A stretch of DNA of 64,000 nt from Pseudanabaena frigida (lineage in GTDB: Bacteria; Cyanobacteriota; Cyanobacteriia; Pseudanabaenales; Pseudanabaenaceae). The stretch lies in the NCBI GenBank assembly GCA_003242085.1, contig QBML01000001.1, positions 186,001 through 250,000 on the forward strand, given 5' to 3'. Under the pieces are notes generated by a model, which was not told where the DNA came from, did not search any database, and saw only the letters and a program-made list of their open reading frames with translations. The translations under genes were made by a program, and so were the position numbers. Shown one piece after another: positions 4,756-60,248 of this stretch; the first letter of the stretch is position 1, and each line of letters starts with the position of its first letter.

Positions 4756-4816
4756 TATAGCTATCACTCAAAGTGTAGCTGCGCCTTAACTCCCTATATA
4801 GATTAGCCACTTGTCT

Positions 4817-4887
4817 TAGGACATAAAACCCAAGAATTGATTGGCGGCGCAGAGCGCCGCCAATCAATTCTTGGGTTTTATGTCCTA
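4817..4887. repeat. perfect 34-bp-arm palindrome, class A (type copy)
   Basis: Bases 4817-4850 pair exactly with 4854-4887 around the loop AGA. The outer part reads TAGGACATAAAACCC, the inner part next to the loop GGCGGCGC, and the part between them, AAGAATTGATT, is not shared with other copies. Left flank TAGCCACTTGTCT and right flank ACTTGGCGACAGCTATAA recur at other class A copies. With the class B palindrome that follows at 4936 it fills nearly all of the 4756-5042 spacer. Confidence 0.9.
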
Positions 4888-4935
4888 GTACACTTGGCGA
4901 CAGCTATAACACCAATTACCGATCGATCGAACCAC

Positions 4936-4984
4936 AATAAAAACCTTAAAAGTATTGTTTAACAACACTTTTAAGGTTTTTATT
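4936..4984. repeat. palindrome, class B
   Basis: AATAAAAACCTTAAAAGT at 4936-4953 pairs perfectly with 4967-4984. After one mismatch the inner part TTGTT pairs with AACAA. The right flank TTGGTTTAGATTTGAGCGC, then CAAGCGCTTT, is nearly the same as the right flank of the copy at 54439, whose arms differ in sequence. It lies downstream of the minus-strand ABC ATPase gene and could also end its transcript. Confidence 0.85.
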
Positions 4985-5042
4985 GGTTTAGATTTGAGCG
5001 CCAAGCGCTTTAAAAGTGGCGACAGCTAACAGCTACATGTTG

Positions 5043-9549: not shown

Positions 9550-9592
9550 TCATAAAAAAGATTCAATGCTTTGCATTGAATCTTTTTTATGA
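9550..9592 (+). terminator. intrinsic terminator of the glucokinase gene
   Basis: Arms of 20 bp, 9550-9569 and 9573-9592, with loop TTT. The right arm contains TCTTTTTTAT, giving the T-run, and the left arm contains the matching A-run, so it could work on both strands. Confidence 0.85.
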
Positions 9593-14738: not shown

Positions 14739-14783
14739 CAAAAGAGTAAATCACAGCGCAAAGCGCTGTGATTTACTCTTTTG
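14739..14783. terminator. hairpin after mrdA
   Basis: Perfect 21-bp arms, 14739-14759 and 14763-14783, loop AAA. The right arm ends CTCTTTTG. It lies directly after the mrdA stop codon. Confidence 0.85.
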
Positions 14784-14804
14784 TTAGCTATTTCATCACT
14801 ATGT

Positions 14805-14850
14805 AACAAAAAAGCAAGGGTAATTTATAAATTACCCTTGCTTTTTTGTT
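14805..14850 (-). terminator. hairpin after ilvC
   Basis: A perfect 46-bp dyad with no unpaired loop: 14805-14827 pairs with 14828-14850. On the minus strand the stem ends in a run of T. It lies 14 bp beyond the ilvC stop codon. Confidence 0.85.
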
Positions 14851-30957: not shown

Positions 30958-31012
30958 CTCCAAACAAAAGAAACCTTAACTAGATTTTAGTTAAGGTTTC
31001 TTTTGTTTGGAG
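30958..31012 (+). terminator. terminator hairpin after rpe
   Basis: Perfect 24-bp arms, 30958-30981 and 30989-31012, with a 7-nt loop. The right arm contains TTTCTTTTGTTTGG. It lies 55 bp after the rpe stop; the class A palindrome at 31075 follows, so 30903-31227 is otherwise gene free. Confidence 0.85.
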
Positions 31013-31074
31013 AATAGTCACCTACTTTAACAGTGAATCTTTTATAGCTATAGCCACTTGTATTAGGACAAATC

Positions 31075-31129
31075 AAAACCCAAATATTGTGAGGCGGCGC
31101 TTCGCGCCGCCTCACAATATTTGGGTTTT
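31075..31129. repeat. palindrome, class A
   Basis: Perfect 26-bp arms, 31075-31100 and 31104-31129, loop TTC. The outer part is AAAACCC, the variable part AAATATTGTGA, the inner part GGCGGCGC. Left flank TATAGCCACTTGTATTAGGACA and right flank TATGTCCC, then GGCTAGCTACAGCTATA, match other copies. Confidence 0.9.
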
Positions 31130-31227
31130 ATGTCCCGATATGGCTAGCTACAGCTATATAACTAAGAGAAGAAGATTTTGCTCGCATCCTATTTTAATAG
31201 CTAACTTATCAGTAAAAAAATATATAA

Positions 31228-32364: not shown

Positions 32365-32605
32365 AGAAATTAAACCTCAGTAATATTATAAAATCATCCT
32401 AAAATATGTGAAATTAGCTGATCCCATTTAATATTTTTATCGTATCACTAAGTATCTTGTAAGAGTATTGCTGTGTTTATCGCTGGTAATAAAAGATTAA
32501 TTATCGTGATCGTGCTTTAAGTAATAAATTGAATTCACAATTGACAAAGGTATAGTTTCTCCTCTACCTACAAATTAGAAGAGAAGACAATAAATTTTCT
32601 TGCGT

Positions 32606-32652
32606 CTTAAAAGAGAAGAAGCCTCGCAAAGCGAGGCTTCTTCTCTTTTAAG
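32606..32652. terminator. terminator hairpin at the end of mscS
   Basis: Perfect 22-bp arms, 32606-32627 and 32631-32652, loop AAA. The mscS stop (32648-32650) is inside one arm. Confidence 0.85.
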
Positions 32653-33463
32653 ATTGACGAATTTGGAAATGTTGTTGTGGAACGGGAAATCCTAATTCAC
32701 TAAAGCATTCACGAATTACTCGATTGGTGTCAAAGTAAACTTGCCAGTAGTGAGTATTGTTGCAGAAAGGACGTACTGCTAGCTCTGGCCCCATCGGAGT
32801 GAAGTGGAGAATTTCAATTACGGGCGCTGGATTACTGAGCACATTGGGAATATTGGCAATCCGCTCCTGAAGAACGCGCACGGCTTCATTGTGATTGACC
32901 GAGTGATCTAATTGCACCTGAATATTAACGCGACGATAATCATTAGCTGAGAAGTTTTGAATATTTTCGGAAAAAAGCTTGTTATTGCCAATAATCGTGC
33001 GAACGTTATCGGCAGTATTAATGGTAGTTACAAACAGACCAATTTCAACGACAGTACCTGAAATACCTGCGGCTGAAATAAAATCACCAACTTGGAATGG
33101 GCGCAAAATAATCAGGAATACGCCTGCGGCAAAGTTAGCTAATAAGCCACTCCAAGCTGCCCCGATCGCGACACCAGCCGCAGCTAACAACGCTGCAAAA
33201 GACGTAGTCTCAATACCAAAGTAACCAAGAATTGCGACTACTAAAATGACATTTAATAGTACGGCGATGCTGGAATTTAGATAACTGATCAACGTGGGAT
33301 CGATACGCTGATTTTTGAGGGCGCGAGATGTGAGATTGACAGCAATATCAATGAGTTTACGACCAACAAACCAGAGGATGATCGCGGCAATAACTTTAAA
33401 TGCAGCTCCAGCCAGCAGATTTAAGTTAGCTGTAATAACGTTTTAAATCGTTGTGGGATCCAT
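32648..33463 (-). pseudogene. mscS: small-conductance mechanosensitive channel, nonsense codon near start
   Basis: From ATG 33463, with AAGGAG 13 bases upstream, the frame reads MDPTTI and then TAA (33443-33445). It resumes in the same frame with NVITANLNLLAGAAF and continues through a full MscS: the first helix, the pore helix ALLAAAGVAIGAAWSGLLANFAAG, and the beta and C-terminal domains. Without the TAA the protein would be 271 residues, normal for MscS. No ATG, GTG or TTG follows the stop until TTG 33292, which would lose the first transmembrane helix. A single change such as CAA to TAA explains this. It would make the channel inactive unless the stop is read through. Confidence 0.85.
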
Positions 33464-33612
33464 ACTATACGGGGTTTCTCCTTTTAAATCAGTAAGGTAT
33501 GCGTCGGTATTATTCATTGACAATCATAGATTCTGACTTATGCTGGGGTCAATTTTATGGATTTCATTAGTTTATTAGGTATAGCAGTACCCAGTTATGT
33601 TTGGACAAAAGC

Positions 33613-33665
33613 AAAACCCAGAAGTGAGTTGCGGCGCTTCGCTCCGCAACTCACTTCTGGGTTTT
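33613..33665. repeat. palindrome, class A
   Basis: Arms of 22 bp, 33613-33634 and 33644-33665, plus inner pairing with one mismatch around TTC. The outer part is AAAACCC, the variable part AGAAGTGAGTT, the inner part GCGGCGC. Left flank TATAGCAGTACC and TTGGACA, right flank TATGTC, then ACTTGGCTATAGCT. A shorter hairpin (TTGTGTCGC with GCGACACAA, 33718-33746) follows. These are all I see in the 33464-33819 spacer. Confidence 0.9.
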
Positions 33666-33819
33666 ATGTCTTAACTTACTTGGCTATAGCTCAGCATAAT
33701 TGAAACCCAAAACCAAATTGTGTCGCTAGCTAAGTGGGCGACACAATAGTTATCCCGCTGGCGTTGCCCCATTTGTGCTGACAAAGCGATAACATCATCA
33801 CAGATGCCGAGGTAAATTT

Positions 33820-37469: not shown

Positions 37470-38765
37470 TTATAAAACGCGCAACACAGTAGGGATACTA
37501 TGTAATGTTGGTAACTCACGAATGGACGCGATCGCCTGTTGGAAATTATACTCGCTCACTTTTTGAGTTACTACGACAATTTCGGCTAAGCCATCATGAA
37601 CTGTTGTCTTTTGTAAAATCGCATTCAAGCTCACATGATGCTTGCCAAAGGCAGTACCAAGATCGCCAATTACGCCAGGCTTGTCATGGGTAAGCAACCT
37701 TGCATAGAACTGAGTCACGGTCTTTGCGATTGGTGCGATTTTGGCATAATGTTCGTGGGAACAGCCCATTAATTGATTGACTTGATTGGGCATCGATTTC
37801 AATGCTGCTACAACATTAATGATGTCGGCAACTACCGCGCTAGCTGTAGCTCCTGCGCCAGCACCAGGCCCTGAAAATACGACTTCGCCGATAGGATCTC
37901 CCTCAATCCGAACGGCATTGGTCACACCGTGAATATTGGCAAGAGGATGCTGAATTGGGATCAAAGTGGGATGTACGCGAATTTCGAGGTTACTTTCATC
38001 CTCCGTTTTGGTTCGTCTCGCAATACCTAATAGCTTAATCGTAAAGCCTAGCTCTTTTGCATATCCAATATCGGCACTAGTGATTGAGCGGATACCTTCG
38101 CGATAAATATCTTCAAGTTTGACGCGATCGCCAAAAGCCAGACTAGCTAAAATTGCCATCTTATCCGCCGCATCATAGCCATCAACGTCCGCAGTTGGAT
38201 CGGCTTCGGCATAGCCTAACTGTTGTGCCTCAGCAAGGGTTGCATCAAAATCCGCTCCTTCAAAATACATCCGACTGAGAATGTAATTAGTCGTGCCATT
38301 GACGATTCCCGTCAACTCACTGATACGATTACCACCGAGGCTTTGCTTTAGAGCTTGGATTACTGGAATACCACCACATGCAGCAGCTTCAAGCATTACG
38401 TATACGCCTTTTTGTTTGGCTGCGGTGAAAATTTCATTACCATGTCTGGCAATCACTGCTTTGTTTGCTGTGACAATATGCTTACCGTTGGCGATCGCTT
38501 TCAAAATCAAACTCTTCGCTGGTTCGATCCCACCAATAACTTCAACCACAATATCGATCTCAGAATCGCTAACAATTGACTCTAAATCATCTGTGACAGT
38601 ACTAGAAGCGATCGCTACATCTCTTTGCTTAGATAGCGATCGCACGCCTACGAGAGCAATTTCGATATCAGGAAGCAAGGGATGACGCCCCGCAGGGTCT
38701 TGAAAAATTTTGGCAACACCAGAGCCAACCGTTCCTAATCCGAGAAGTCCAACTTTATATGTCAC
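37470..38765 (-). CDS. hom: homoserine dehydrogenase
   Basis: 431 residues reducing aspartate semialdehyde to homoserine for Thr, Met and Ile synthesis. Visible are the NAD loop LLGLGTVGSGVAKI, the catalytic block GIVNGTTNYILSRM and YAEADPTADVDGYDAADK, and a C-terminal ACT domain (LLTHDKPGVIGDLGTAFGKH) for feedback by threonine. ATG 38765 starts the protein with no upstream extension. Single gene. Confidence 0.95.
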   Translation of the reverse strand: MTYKVGLLGLGTVGSGVAKIFQDPAGRHPLLPDIEIALVGVRSLSKQRDVAIASSTVTDDLESIVSDSEIDIVVEVIGGIEPAKSLILKAIANGKHIVTANKAVIARHGNEIFTAAKQKGVYVMLEAAACGGIPVIQALKQSLGGNRISELTGIVNGTTNYILSRMYFEGADFDATLAEAQQLGYAEADPTADVDGYDAADKMAILASLAFGDRVKLEDIYREGIRSITSADIGYAKELGFTIKLLGIARRTKTEDESNLEIRVHPTLIPIQHPLANIHGVTNAVRIEGDPIGEVVFSGPGAGAGATASAVVADIINVVAALKSMPNQVNQLMGCSHEHYAKIAPIAKTVTQFYARLLTHDKPGVIGDLGTAFGKHHVSLNAILQKTTVHDGLAEIVVVTQKVSEYNFQQAIASIRELPTLHSIPTVLRVL

Positions 38766-38840: not shown

Positions 38841-38895
38841 AAAACCCAGAAAGTAAAAGGGGGCGCGAAGCGCCCCCTTTTACTTTCTGGGTTTT
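38841..38895. repeat. palindrome, class A
   Basis: Perfect 26-bp arms, 38841-38866 and 38870-38895, loop GAA. Outer part AAAACCC, variable part AGAAAGTAAAA, inner part GGGGGCGC. It lacks the TATAGC flanks. It lies between the divergently placed hom promoter and the DUF1830 gene end. Confidence 0.9.
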
Positions 38896-39406: not shown

Positions 39407-39469
39407 AAATCAAACTCTAGAAAGTAAAAGCGGCATTTAATGCCGCTTTTACTTTCTAGAGTTTGATTT
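39407..39469. repeat. perfect palindrome with TAGAAAGTAAAAG arms
   Basis: 31-bp arms around T 39438, with no mismatch. The inner part is GCGGCATT and the arm contains CTAGAAAGTAAAAG, close to the arm of the class A copy at 38841, so it is probably a relative with different outer ends. It lies about 33 bp downstream of the next minus-strand gene and may end it. Confidence 0.85.
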
Positions 39470-40182: not shown

Positions 40183-40250
40183 AATCTCTATTAGTGTGGG
40201 TTACGGCTACGCCTAACCTAATATAGCAATGCAAGTTTTGCTCAGCATAT

Positions 40251-40305
40251 AAAACCCAAAAGATGAGTGGCGGCACGAAGTGCCGCCACTCATCTTTTGG
40301 GTTTT
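40251..40305. repeat. palindrome, class A
   Basis: Perfect 26-bp arms, 40251-40276 and 40280-40305, loop GAA. Outer part AAAACCC, variable part AAAAGATGAGT, inner part GGCGGCAC. The left flank ATAGCAATGCAAGTTTTGCTC is shared with the copy at 56495. Confidence 0.9.
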
Positions 40306-45947: not shown

Positions 45948-48254
45948 ATGGAATTCTCGATTAATCAACTGTTAGATAACTTCTCTGATGACAAGCTAGT
46001 TACGCCTAAAGCAATCGAAAAAAAACTTGGAATTGGCGACGACAATAAAAGCGTTCGTAAGCTCCAAGTTGCCCTTGATGCTCTCGAAAAAATTGGCATT
46101 CTTGAAAAAGACAAAGGACGCTACCGCCGCATTCACGAAGAAGGTTTGGTGGAGGGTCGGCTGCGCTGTTCAAGCAAAGGTTTTTGCTTTGCAATTCAAG
46201 ATGTAGAGGGCGCTGAAGATATATATGTTCGCGAGAGTCGTTTGAGTAATGCTTGGAATGGCGATCGCGTATTAGTACGAGTTACCAAAGACGGCGTAAG
46301 GCGAAGATCTCCTGAGGGTGAAGTGCGCCTGATCCTCGAACGTTCAAATCCGACTTTACTTTCGACGGTAAAGTTAACCGATGATAGTTATCGGGCAGTG
46401 CCACTGGACGATCGACTTTTATTTGAAGTTGAGCTAGTTCCAGACGAGGAAACTCCGGATCTCAGCGTGGCAAATGGGAAATTAGTCCATCTGGAAATGG
46501 TGAGATTTTCCTTAGGCAATCATTTACCTATGGGGCGAATCTTACAGATTTTAGGGGATGATGCCGAATCAACTAATGATATCGACTTAGTATGCTGCAA
46601 ACACAACTTGCCAAGACGATTTAGCGCTAAGGCTCTAACTGCGGCAGCAAGCTTACCGAGGGGGGTCAGAAAAGCCGATCTCAAACATCGCCTCGATTTG
46701 CGTAAAACTCTAACGGTAAGAATTGGCAATGCTGCTGCGATTTCGATTGTTCGAGTGGAAACTGGCTGGGAATTGGGCGTACATATTCCTGACGTAGCAA
46801 CTTATGTTACTTCTGGATCGCCTCTGGACTTAGAAGCGCGCAAACGCCTACGGTCATTTTTCTTGGGCGACACGATCTTGCCGATGCTCCCTGAAATGAA
46901 TGTATTTAATCAACCTGAATACCTGACAATGTCAGTGTTGATTAAATTAGATGATGAAGGCAATATGCTTTCATTCGAAATTCAACCTTCAGCGGTTTTG
47001 GTTCGTGCCAATTTGAGTTATCAGAGAGCACAACAAATCCTTGATGGCAAAGTAACTGTTGATGAGGATGCACCCAGTCAAGAAATTGATACTGAAGTTG
47101 AAGAGTTAGTTCATTTGATTGCGAAGATTGGAGGGCTACTACAAGAGCGCTCCAATGCTATCAGACTAGTATTGCCACAAATACCTTCTCAGGAGGCTGA
47201 TGAGGGAGTGAGAGGGGTCACAGTCGTTCCCTTCTCCTTGCCGATCTCTGGCACTGTGACAGAGATAATGATTTTGGCGAATAGAGCGATATCTTCTCAT
47301 TTGCAATCCTTAGCAATTCCTGCTATCTACCTACGCCAAATTCCACCCGATCAAGGAAAAATTGACGATTGGACGAAGTTACTAGAAAGCATGGGTATTT
47401 CTGCTCAGTTAGAAAATCCCGAGCAGATTCAAGTTTCAGATTTGCATCAAATCTTGCAACAGATCGATTCGATCGAACAAGATGCCACTCGAGATATTCT
47501 CAAATACTTATTGCTGTCAATGTTTAAGACTAATGAGTATGTGCTTACTCCTTCGCTCCATTTTGGTTTGGGTTTGCTCGACCAACCTTATGCTCACGGG
47601 GTATTTCCACAAAATCATTATGGAGATTTGCTGGTTCAACGCACTTTACATACAGTATTTGAAGAGGGTCGCGATCGGCGTAGTATTCGTATTAAGGATG
47701 GGGTAAATCTTCGAAGCTCTAGCGCTCACGGTCAAGTAAACTGGAGTGTTTTACCTCCAGATACCGAGCGGCAGTTAATTGAGGATTTGGAATCAGTTTT
47801 GCCAAAGCTCAATCAAGCTGATGCTTTGTATCACCGTTCAATTTCTGACCTCGATGGATTGCGTAAAGCGGAATTTATGCGATCGCATACTGGTGAAAAC
47901 TTCTACGGCATCATCACTAGCGTTCAGTCCTATGGTTTCTTTGTGGAAATTGAGTCCCTATTAGTTGAGGGATTGGTACATGTCAGTTCCCTTAAAGATG
48001 ACTGGTATGAGTTTCCATTAATTAACGGTAAGGGTAGAGCAAGAGCTTCAACTTTGTTAGTTGGTCGTCGTAGCGGTCGTCAATACTGTTTGGGCGATCG
48101 CGTCGAAGTGCAGGTGAAAGGGGTAGATTACTATCGCCAGCAAATCGATCTAGTTGCAGTTGTAGTTCCCGAACTCGAACGTGATTCGACTGTTAATGAT
48201 TCGGAGGTTGATTTAGAAATCCCTGAGGAAATCGATACAGAGAGCATAGAATAA
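45948..48254 (+). CDS. RNase II/R-like protein without catalytic acidic cluster
   Basis: 768 residues. An RNase R type winged helix (MEFSINQLLDNFSDDKLVTP), a cold-shock-like domain (GRLRCSSKGFCFAIQD), an RNB-like domain (KHRLDLRKTLTVRI, WELGVHIPDVATYV, DTILPMLPEMNVF, LVRANLSYQRA) and an S1 domain (ENFYGIITSVQSYGFFVEIES). The stretch that should carry the metal-binding DxxxxxDxDD cluster reads IGNAAAISI, with no Asp. Activity as a 3'-5' exonuclease is thus unlikely; it may bind RNA or regulate. It is not unique to judge whether this loss is general in cyanobacteria. Stop codon lies in a hairpin. Confidence 0.85.
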   Translation: MEFSINQLLDNFSDDKLVTPKAIEKKLGIGDDNKSVRKLQVALDALEKIGILEKDKGRYRRIHEEGLVEGRLRCSSKGFCFAIQDVEGAEDIYVRESRLSNAWNGDRVLVRVTKDGVRRRSPEGEVRLILERSNPTLLSTVKLTDDSYRAVPLDDRLLFEVELVPDEETPDLSVANGKLVHLEMVRFSLGNHLPMGRILQILGDDAESTNDIDLVCCKHNLPRRFSAKALTAAASLPRGVRKADLKHRLDLRKTLTVRIGNAAAISIVRVETGWELGVHIPDVATYVTSGSPLDLEARKRLRSFFLGDTILPMLPEMNVFNQPEYLTMSVLIKLDDEGNMLSFEIQPSAVLVRANLSYQRAQQILDGKVTVDEDAPSQEIDTEVEELVHLIAKIGGLLQERSNAIRLVLPQIPSQEADEGVRGVTVVPFSLPISGTVTEIMILANRAISSHLQSLAIPAIYLRQIPPDQGKIDDWTKLLESMGISAQLENPEQIQVSDLHQILQQIDSIEQDATRDILKYLLLSMFKTNEYVLTPSLHFGLGLLDQPYAHGVFPQNHYGDLLVQRTLHTVFEEGRDRRSIRIKDGVNLRSSSAHGQVNWSVLPPDTERQLIEDLESVLPKLNQADALYHRSISDLDGLRKAEFMRSHTGENFYGIITSVQSYGFFVEIESLLVEGLVHVSSLKDDWYEFPLINGKGRARASTLLVGRRSGRQYCLGDRVEVQVKGVDYYRQQIDLVAVVVPELERDSTVNDSEVDLEIPEEIDTESIE

Positions 48255-48299
48255 TCTAGCTTGGCTGGAGTAATGCTCCAGCCAAGCTAGATTATTCTA
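48247..48299 (+). terminator. terminator hairpin after the RNase-like gene
   Basis: Perfect 24-bp arms, 48247-48270 and 48276-48299, loop TAATG. The left arm includes the stop codon. Confidence 0.85.
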
Positions 48300-54355: not shown

Positions 54356-54438
54356 GAAATTGGGTACTAAGGAATAATAGTGCTTTATGCTTTTTCCAAT
54401 TTATGGGTTTTGCAGCAATTACCGACCAATCTAAACAC

Positions 54439-54487
54439 AAGAAACATTTTGAAAGCGTTGCTAAGCAACACTTTCAAAATGTTTCTT
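54439..54487. repeat. palindrome, class B
   Basis: AAGAAACATTTTGAAAG at 54439-54455 pairs perfectly with 54471-54487; after a mismatch GTTGCT pairs with AGCAAC. The right flank TTGGTTTGGGTTTGAGCGC, then AAAGCGCT, is shared with the copy at 4936, though the arms differ. It lies between the DUF3352 and rdgB genes. Confidence 0.85.
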
Positions 54488-54551
54488 GGTTTGGGTTTGA
54501 GCGCAAAGCGCTGTAGTTACGATAAGATTGGTGAAAATGTTGGTTTTAAAA

Positions 54552-56408: not shown

Positions 56409-56494
56409 GTAATACATCAAGCCTAAACAAGCTGTGTTAAAAAATTGTTTTAGAGTATATATCAATGCAAGTTTTGCTCAGGACGTAAAACCCA

Positions 56495-56533
56495 AATAAA
56501 TAGAGGCGGTGCTTTGCACCGCCTCTATTTATT
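56495..56533. repeat. palindrome, class A (right end changed)
   Basis: Perfect 18-bp arms, 56495-56512 and 56516-56533, loop TTT. The inner part is GGCGGTGC. The left flank, with AATGCAAGTTTTGCTCAG and TAAAACCC, matches 40225-40257, but the right GGGTTTT is missing, replaced by GCTATAG. Confidence 0.85.
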
Positions 56534-56587
56534 GCTATAGAAATCAAGCTGCTAAATTCATCTGCTTATCTTCTGACACTTTAAGTT

Positions 56588-60200: not shown

Positions 60201-60248
60201 AAGCCAAGCTAAGAGAGACGATTCACATCGTCTCTCTTAGCTTGGCTT
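60201..60248. repeat. palindrome related to class A
   Basis: Perfect 21-bp arms, 60201-60221 and 60228-60248, loop TTCACA. The left flank ATAGCCATCGCCACAAT, then TTAGGACAAAACC, has the same TAGCC/TTAGGACA pattern as class A. It and the next one fill 60110-60419. Confidence 0.8.

Follow-up and report, generated by a model that had tools for sequence, protein, structure and literature searches.

Quasipalindrome correction, or short-range template switching, is credited to Ripley 1982 (PMC7202029) and is described as a process in which the arms of an inverted repeat are made identical, the spacer between them inverts, and several compensatory changes arise per event (PMC7202029, PMC8794818, PMC8604942). 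The cases that these papers present come from E. coli reporters, yeast genes and rRNA genes. Bacterial MITEs, such as the cyanobacterial Nezha (PMC3733652; review PMC10969869), are described as short, non-coding and mostly intergenic elements with inverted-repeat ends and many copies. The hairpins reported here resemble both systems. They differ from the published cases of template switching in that the changes are found at orthologous hairpins, in a genus rich in dispersed mobile hairpins.

The window analyzed here is a stretch of 64,000 nucleotides of Pseudanabaena frigida (contig QBML01000001.1, positions 186,001 to 250,000), part of a genome assembly whose 67 contigs total 5.39 Mb. It contains six palindromes of one class, referred to as class A, all of which lie at the positions given by a first-pass annotation of the window. 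Copy 1 is a whole element, TATAGA...GCTATA, at 4797..4908, with a perfect stem of 34 bp (4817-4850 paired with 4854-4887) closed by the loop AGA (4851-4853). Its core, AAAACCC..GGGTTTT, spans 4825-4879, and its stem extends 8 bp beyond AAAACCC, with the short-type flank ATGTCCTA on both sides. Folded as DNA together with its flanks, this copy reaches −48.1 kcal/mol (z −14.5). Copy 2, a whole element TATAGC...GCTATA of 116 bp at 31043..31158, has a 26-bp perfect stem and a 3-nt loop in its core (31075-31129), while copy 3, an element TATAGC...GCTATA at 33580..33688, has a core at 33613-33665 whose stem is 25 bp long with one mismatch. Copy 4 consists of the core only (38841..38895; 26 bp perfect, 3-nt loop) and lies upstream of the gene for homoserine dehydrogenase (37470-38765, minus strand). 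Copy 5 (40222..40305) begins with the left end TATAGCAATGCAAG at 40222, followed by a core at 40251-40305 with a 26-bp perfect stem and a 3-nt loop, and its right end is unrecognizable. Finally, copy 6 (56458..56539) has a left end decayed to TATATC, an 18-bp perfect stem at 56495-56533, and GCTATA in place of the right outer arm.

These stems bear out the earlier claim that each arm pairs with its partner exactly or with one mismatch. AAAACCC had been placed outside every copy, which is correct in general and fails in copy 6, where the motif is found on the left side only (56487-56493) and the right stem meets GCTATA directly. The recurring flanks TATAGC and AGCTATA, also pointed out earlier, are real and turn out to be pieces of one larger element: copies 1-3 begin with TATAG at 4797, 31043 and 33580 and finish with GCTATA at 4908, 31158 and 33688, and one or both of these ends are absent in copies 4 and 5. 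The same window holds other long hairpins of different families at 4935-4985, 9550-9592, 14739-14850, 30958-31012, 32605-32653, 39407-39469, 48247-48299, 54438-54488 and 60201-60248.

The class A hairpin is the center of a MITE-like element, about 116 bp long with the ends TATAGC...GCTATA, which is probably mobile and non-autonomous. Alignment of 106 copies from three genomes (60, 29 and 17) places a 26-bp stem and 3-base loop at the center and shows conservation running outward, in all three genomes, as far as TATAGC at one end and GCTATA at the opposite end. The two ends occur together in 35 of the 106 copies, 22 of which, as judged by eye, consist of exactly 32 bases, the 55-base core and 29 bases, giving 116 bp. 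Across all sequence examined, 39 pairs of ends lie less than 130 bp apart, and 29 of these 39 span 110-119 bp. The ends are of two types, TATAGCAATGCAAG and TATAGCTRTMGCCA, with the consensus TATAGC(TRTMGCCA/AATGCAAG), and the flank consensus of the window's genome reads ...ctaggacaaatc and AtgtccTaagcaaaactt.... Just beyond the stem, 47 copies are classifiable on both sides (59 of the 106 are not), and 46 of these have asymmetric flanks, GACAAATC versus ATGTCC. The sole symmetric copy among the 47 is copy 1 of the window, whose short-type flank on both sides indicates a stem that has grown to 34 bp; another 34-bp hairpin of the same type lies at L061:269-339, outside the 47-copy set. Open reading frames of at least 100 aa contain 4 of the 106 copies and exclude 102; 2 of the 106 lie at the edge of the examined stretch, and the remainder occupy gaps of every orientation. 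The element is therefore short and non-coding with terminal inverted repeats, as a MITE is. Its flanks are common to copies genome-wide, a property on which the first-pass annotation had staked its reading. Separately, in 3 of the 35 two-ended elements the neighboring host DNA forms a perfect inverted repeat, such as gattta/taaatc, of 5 bases or more, as seen by eye (L026:955-1009, L026:3037-3091 and L031:1843-1897), where a hand calculation gives about 0.03 expected; either insertion at palindrome centers or palindromes extending outward would produce them.

The family is large in the window's genome. A full-pattern search that placed no constraint on the 11 middle bases of either arm and tolerated at most 2 mismatches returned 121 matches there (genome G000) and 0 for a reversed control, and the half-site pattern returned 81+84 matches versus 0+0. 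All 26 Pseudanabaena genomes searched contain the hairpin family, with 1-330 copies each (330 in G018, 205 in G004, 141 in G002 and 1 in G003). None was found in 12 further genomes of the order, which represent seven other genera, belong to the same taxonomic family and are in some cases less than 90% complete. The family is, as found so far, restricted to one cyanobacterial genus.

Copies vary in presence between related genomes. One G018 copy is absent from the orthologous G009 interval; the interval around the empty site differs in sequence, and the insertion point is not clean. Inspection by eye of 35 two-ended copies for target-site duplication revealed no consistent repeat past a possible TA. 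The sequence CATTGCAAA, which stands on both sides of the G018 insertion, was considered as a target duplication and rejected, as it is absent from the other copies. The end motifs may serve transposition by a transposase acting in trans. No IS with the element's ends was found at ten loci (2 PF13358, 5 PF01609 and 3 PF01797), and among 26 pairs of the same ends lying more than 150 bp apart, the 19 inspected by eye contained no longest reading frame resembling a transposase. A REP-associated transposase, the candidate proposed in the first-pass annotation, is not supported as the mobilizer of the family. Copy number does not track RAYT genes: G002, with 141 copies, has no match and G018, with 330, none over the cut-off, while G003, with a single copy, has 8 matches; matches over the cut-off occur in 11 of the 26 genomes, including G004 (205 copies) and G000 (121). 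Class A hairpins are absent from three Y1_Tnp loci, each about 3.3 kb long, and from the 3.4-kb locus of the one clear RAYT in the window's genome, L071 (G000:C33:33383-33832; NF047646, 186 bits). Distribution and neighborhood together speak against mobilization by RAYT (REP-transposase).

Two further observations concern the surroundings of the copies. An IS630-type element at L149:1420-2435, with its own 19-bp ends TATAGTAAATTCAAATAAG, is directly adjoined by a class A copy that is truncated, with the left end gone and the inner stem broken. In addition, G018:C23 and G004:C1 are 97% identical in a single gene and 94% identical across 32 kb, and 10 of 116 G018 hairpins were placeable on 266 kb of G004. 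That so few placed hairpins are common to the two genomes suggests frequent rearrangement.

The arms of the class A stem vary together. In a half-site test, the partner arm was excluded from the search and both strands were read, so that two half-sites are possible per hairpin; 151 half-sites were recovered, 149 with 60 nt downstream and two without. The variable middle is perfectly paired with its partner in 137 of the 149, with 1 mismatch in 7, 2 in 2, 4 in 2 and 6 in 1, whereas middles drawn at random from two different copies differ at 3-7 positions in about 73% of cases. This agrees with the earlier description of middles that differ in each copy yet match their own partner. Distinct middles that mismatch their partner at no more than 2 positions number 53, with lengths of 10 nt (3), 11 nt (45) or 12 nt (5), indicating that length changes are common to both arms. 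Among 83 distinct 26-bp stems, chosen by a finder that allowed up to 5 mismatches and hence biased upward in percentage paired, 284 cells changed on both sides, compared with 76.4 ± 6.2 in shuffled controls and 19-39 with slid partners, and both-sided changes occur at 17 of the 26 stem pairs. Related copies devoid of structure can exceed shuffles, an effect that the slid partners counter. The covariation exceeds both controls, and this was the second point on which the initial reading could have fallen.

Mismatches in the 83 flank-oriented stems comprise 30 A-C, 25 G-T and 34 others, which lie mostly in the outer stem; inner-stem mismatches include 20 A-C and 12 G-T. The mismatch rate is 0.8% in the stem middle, 5.1% in the inner stem and 8.3% in the outer stem. 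A reading of the low middle rate as a correction tract was discarded as confounded, the middle being AT-rich and 32 of the 34 inner mismatches being A-C or G-T.

Changes in place were followed in nine pairs of relatives at orthologous hairpins, identified through their flanking sequence, and counts were taken from three non-overlapping species pairs. The hairpins compared belong to several families, and entry required a near-perfect stem in one genome or more. That G015/G020 and G011/G019 are non-overlapping pairs is supported by 510 informative sites for the split versus 152 and 115 for the alternatives (21,732 shared sites). From 90 mapped rows in both directions across the three pairs, 30 were kept; the others had more than 10 gapped stem columns (23), fewer than 12 comparable pairs (4), more than 22% stem divergence (9) or more than 14 gaps (6), or were duplicates (18). 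The 30 hairpins contain 633 stem pairs, of which 564 are the same, 46 changed in one arm, 21 are compensated doubles and 2 are other doubles. Compensated doubles make up 21 of the 69 changed pairs (bootstrap over hairpins, 0.18-0.44), compared with 0-3 when partners are slid by 1-3 bases, and at least one is present in 12 of the 30 hairpins. Removal of one badly aligned hairpin leaves 29 hairpins with 537 same, 39 one-arm, 19 compensated and 0 other double pairs. Transversions account for 12 of the 21 doubles, showing that a G-U step is not required. The excess of one-arm changes over doubles (46 versus 21) indicates that correction is incomplete. A near-perfect stem demanded in one genome cannot alone produce differences in both arms of the other; the existence of the doubles is therefore independent of that choice.

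Singles to doubles stand at 30:7 in the eight loop-proximal pairs and 16:14 in the rest (Fisher p 0.019, three pairs), and at 76:22 versus 55:41 in the nine overlapping pairs (p 0.003). This modest contrast fits priming from the loop side.

Class A forms a small part of this sample: a simple test assigns class A ends to 5 of the 30 hairpins, one of them doubtful, giving a count of 4-5. Class A-like hairpins in the three pairs show 2 doubles and 3 singles next to 124 stem pairs without change. Relative to copy 4 of the window, the hairpin at the same place in L089 and L090 carries one A-T to G-C double and a different loop, and L087 shows further changes at this site, one pair completed and one half-completed. 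The in-place evidence for class A agrees with the rest but is small, and the weight comes from the other hairpin families. In G011 (L144, G011:C10 ~62030), the hairpin upstream of homoserine dehydrogenase lacks 8 loop-end bases, and its other arm sequence is as in the relatives.

Some loops of these hairpins are inverted. Three-base loops in the three disjoint pairs are the same in 10 cases, the exact reverse complement in 3 and otherwise different in 4 (n = 17), the inversions from independent pairs thus numbering only 3. The nine overlapping pairs give 20 same, 17 reverse complement, 14 other and 2 gapped (n = 53). Template switching is reported to leave the spacer exactly inverted between matching arms, both in yeast (PMC8604942) and in rRNA genes (PMC8794818). 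Two hallmarks of template switching are accordingly present in these genomes: homogenization of arms in place (21 of 69 changed pairs over several families, 2 of 5 in class A alone) and inversion of the spacer between matching arms (3 of 17, or 17 of 53 in the overlapping pairs).

We consider it likely that, as a whole, the palindromes represent a mobile element whose arms evolve in concert through template switching during replication. A polymerase at the hairpin would switch to the nascent or opposite strand, copy the other arm and return. Such template switching, or quasipalindrome correction, would act after insertion, on the element as on the other long hairpins of these genomes. A mutation in one arm would be either erased or transferred to the partner arm, which would give perfect stems with a drifting sequence, and a switch to the opposite strand would yield an inverted loop. 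The outer AAAACCC and the inner GGCGGCGC are presumably maintained by the mobilizing machinery, leaving the 11-base middle free. The doubles and inversions at orthologous sites point to template switching as the cause, and the same process appears to have shaped class A. A model with two parameters, mutation per site and correction per mismatch, fitted to four counts, gives a ratio of correction per mismatch to mutation per site of about 45 (34-60), a value that depends on stationarity and on hairpins picked for near-perfect stems; its log-likelihood gain over no correction is 81.5. Of the two causes put forward in the first-pass annotation, copying of one arm from the other is the better supported, through the in-place doubles, the transversions, the joint length changes and the loop inversion.

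The other of those causes, selection for pairing, is unlikely. It would have the hairpin act as RNA (a terminator or mRNA stabilizer) or as a DNA cruciform, with mismatches replaced by compensated states. Stem covariation is standard evidence for a functional RNA structure, and the 83 stems covary strongly. Terminator-like features are present on both strands at copies 31075 and 40251 and on one strand at copy 38841, with 33613 not among them, and gaps between convergent genes hold 23 of 60 copies in the window's genome, compared with 7 of the 31 window gaps of at least 100 bases. These terminator-like copies and the convergent lean make a local role possible. G018, in contrast, has no convergent excess (6 of 29), and copy number ranges from 1 to 330 among species. 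That 12 of the 21 in-place doubles are transversions also argues against selection, and exact loop inversion and joint indels are unexpected if it acts on point mutations. Flank-oriented mismatches show no G-U tolerance, a weak test as this orientation may not be that of the transcribed strand.

Arm copying could instead belong to transposition rather than take place at resident hairpins: the element would move as a hairpin or single strand, and fold-back synthesis would rebuild the second arm. This explanation, which we regard as improbable, draws on the comparison of paralogues. Minimum spanning trees of class A copies, with edges of up to 3 changed pairs, give doubles to singles in the middle of the stem (zero-based positions 7-17) of 27:3 in the window's genome, 5:1 in G018 and 6:0 in G004, more extreme than the 21:46 found in place over all families. 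Whole-stem ratios are milder (doubles/singles/others of 29/24/3, 6/11/0 and 7/2/0, respectively), however, and the trees blend inherited subfamilies with new changes; the extreme ratio in the middle may reflect such subfamilies, a lower mutability of its AT-rich sequence, or copying at transposition. Moreover, doubles and loop inversions occur at orthologous sites that have not moved, in unrelated hairpin families. A combined form, in which movement of a folded single strand rebuilds one arm at each move and arm copying is a transposition step as well as a replication error, is similarly doubtful. Were it true, heritable information would reside in one arm only, the stem sequence would be free, and perfect pairing would be a by-product of propagation. 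Recombination or gene conversion that swaps whole hairpins between copies is very improbable. Genomes with as many as hundreds of copies would offer partners, but the flanks and most of the stem keep their register, by eye, with one or a few pairs changed. In addition, one G015 hairpin has an arm form, GATTGATTTGTTG..., that is exact only at its own two arms in that draft genome, with related half-sites elsewhere; with no second exact source in the draft, copying from a paralogue is unlikely there.

Template switching in a mobile family would have consequences for how paired sequences are read. Strong covariation is here best explained by a mutational process, in a family whose copies number up to hundreds in a genome; covariation in repeats, or matching changes in two arms, is not necessarily a sign of selected function. 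The family also provides a natural and countable system for the speed of arm-to-arm correction relative to point mutation in wild bacteria. Rfam, searched at gathering scores, gave no matches in the window, and a literature search of titles and abstract openings, with subscription papers mostly outside its scope, found the repeat nowhere described. The statement that no named family fits stands within this scope of literature and Rfam. The mechanism, on the other hand, does have a name, template switching or quasipalindrome correction, and is already known; for the family and the evidence from orthologous sites, we did not find a description in the literature searched.

The closest relatives in print are most likely the small dispersed repeats of Nostoc. 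These repeats, from Elhai 2008, are reportedly very small mobile hairpins with compensatory changes, sometimes located inside minitransposons. They are said to be 21-27 nt long and confined to Nostoc relatives, a description that would set them apart from the present element. REPINs are likewise described as dispersed intergenic hairpins with conserved ends and a free spacer (PMC3116915). The element differs from them in its TATAGC...GCTATA ends, its conserved GC-rich loop-side part and a copy number that does not track RAYT genes, and the REPIN tag GTAG or CGTC next to the palindrome is absent from the flank consensus of the window's genome; the element is not a REPIN. MITEs, as represented by Nezha (PMC3733652), differ from the element in that it has a perfect central 26-bp stem and co-evolving arms, with no parent IS found. 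Similarities extend to organelles. In Nematomorpha mitochondria, coding palindromes are described as perfect inverted repeats with concerted arms, for which template switching is a possible cause; these lie within mitochondrial protein genes and do not form a dispersed element (PMC6649704). The repetitive hairpin elements of sponge mitochondria are dispersed and similar in size, and two of their types differ by "few complementary substitutions" (PMC2800124). Their stems are described as conserved and their loops as variable, whereas in the element of Pseudanabaena the middle of the stem is the most variable part.
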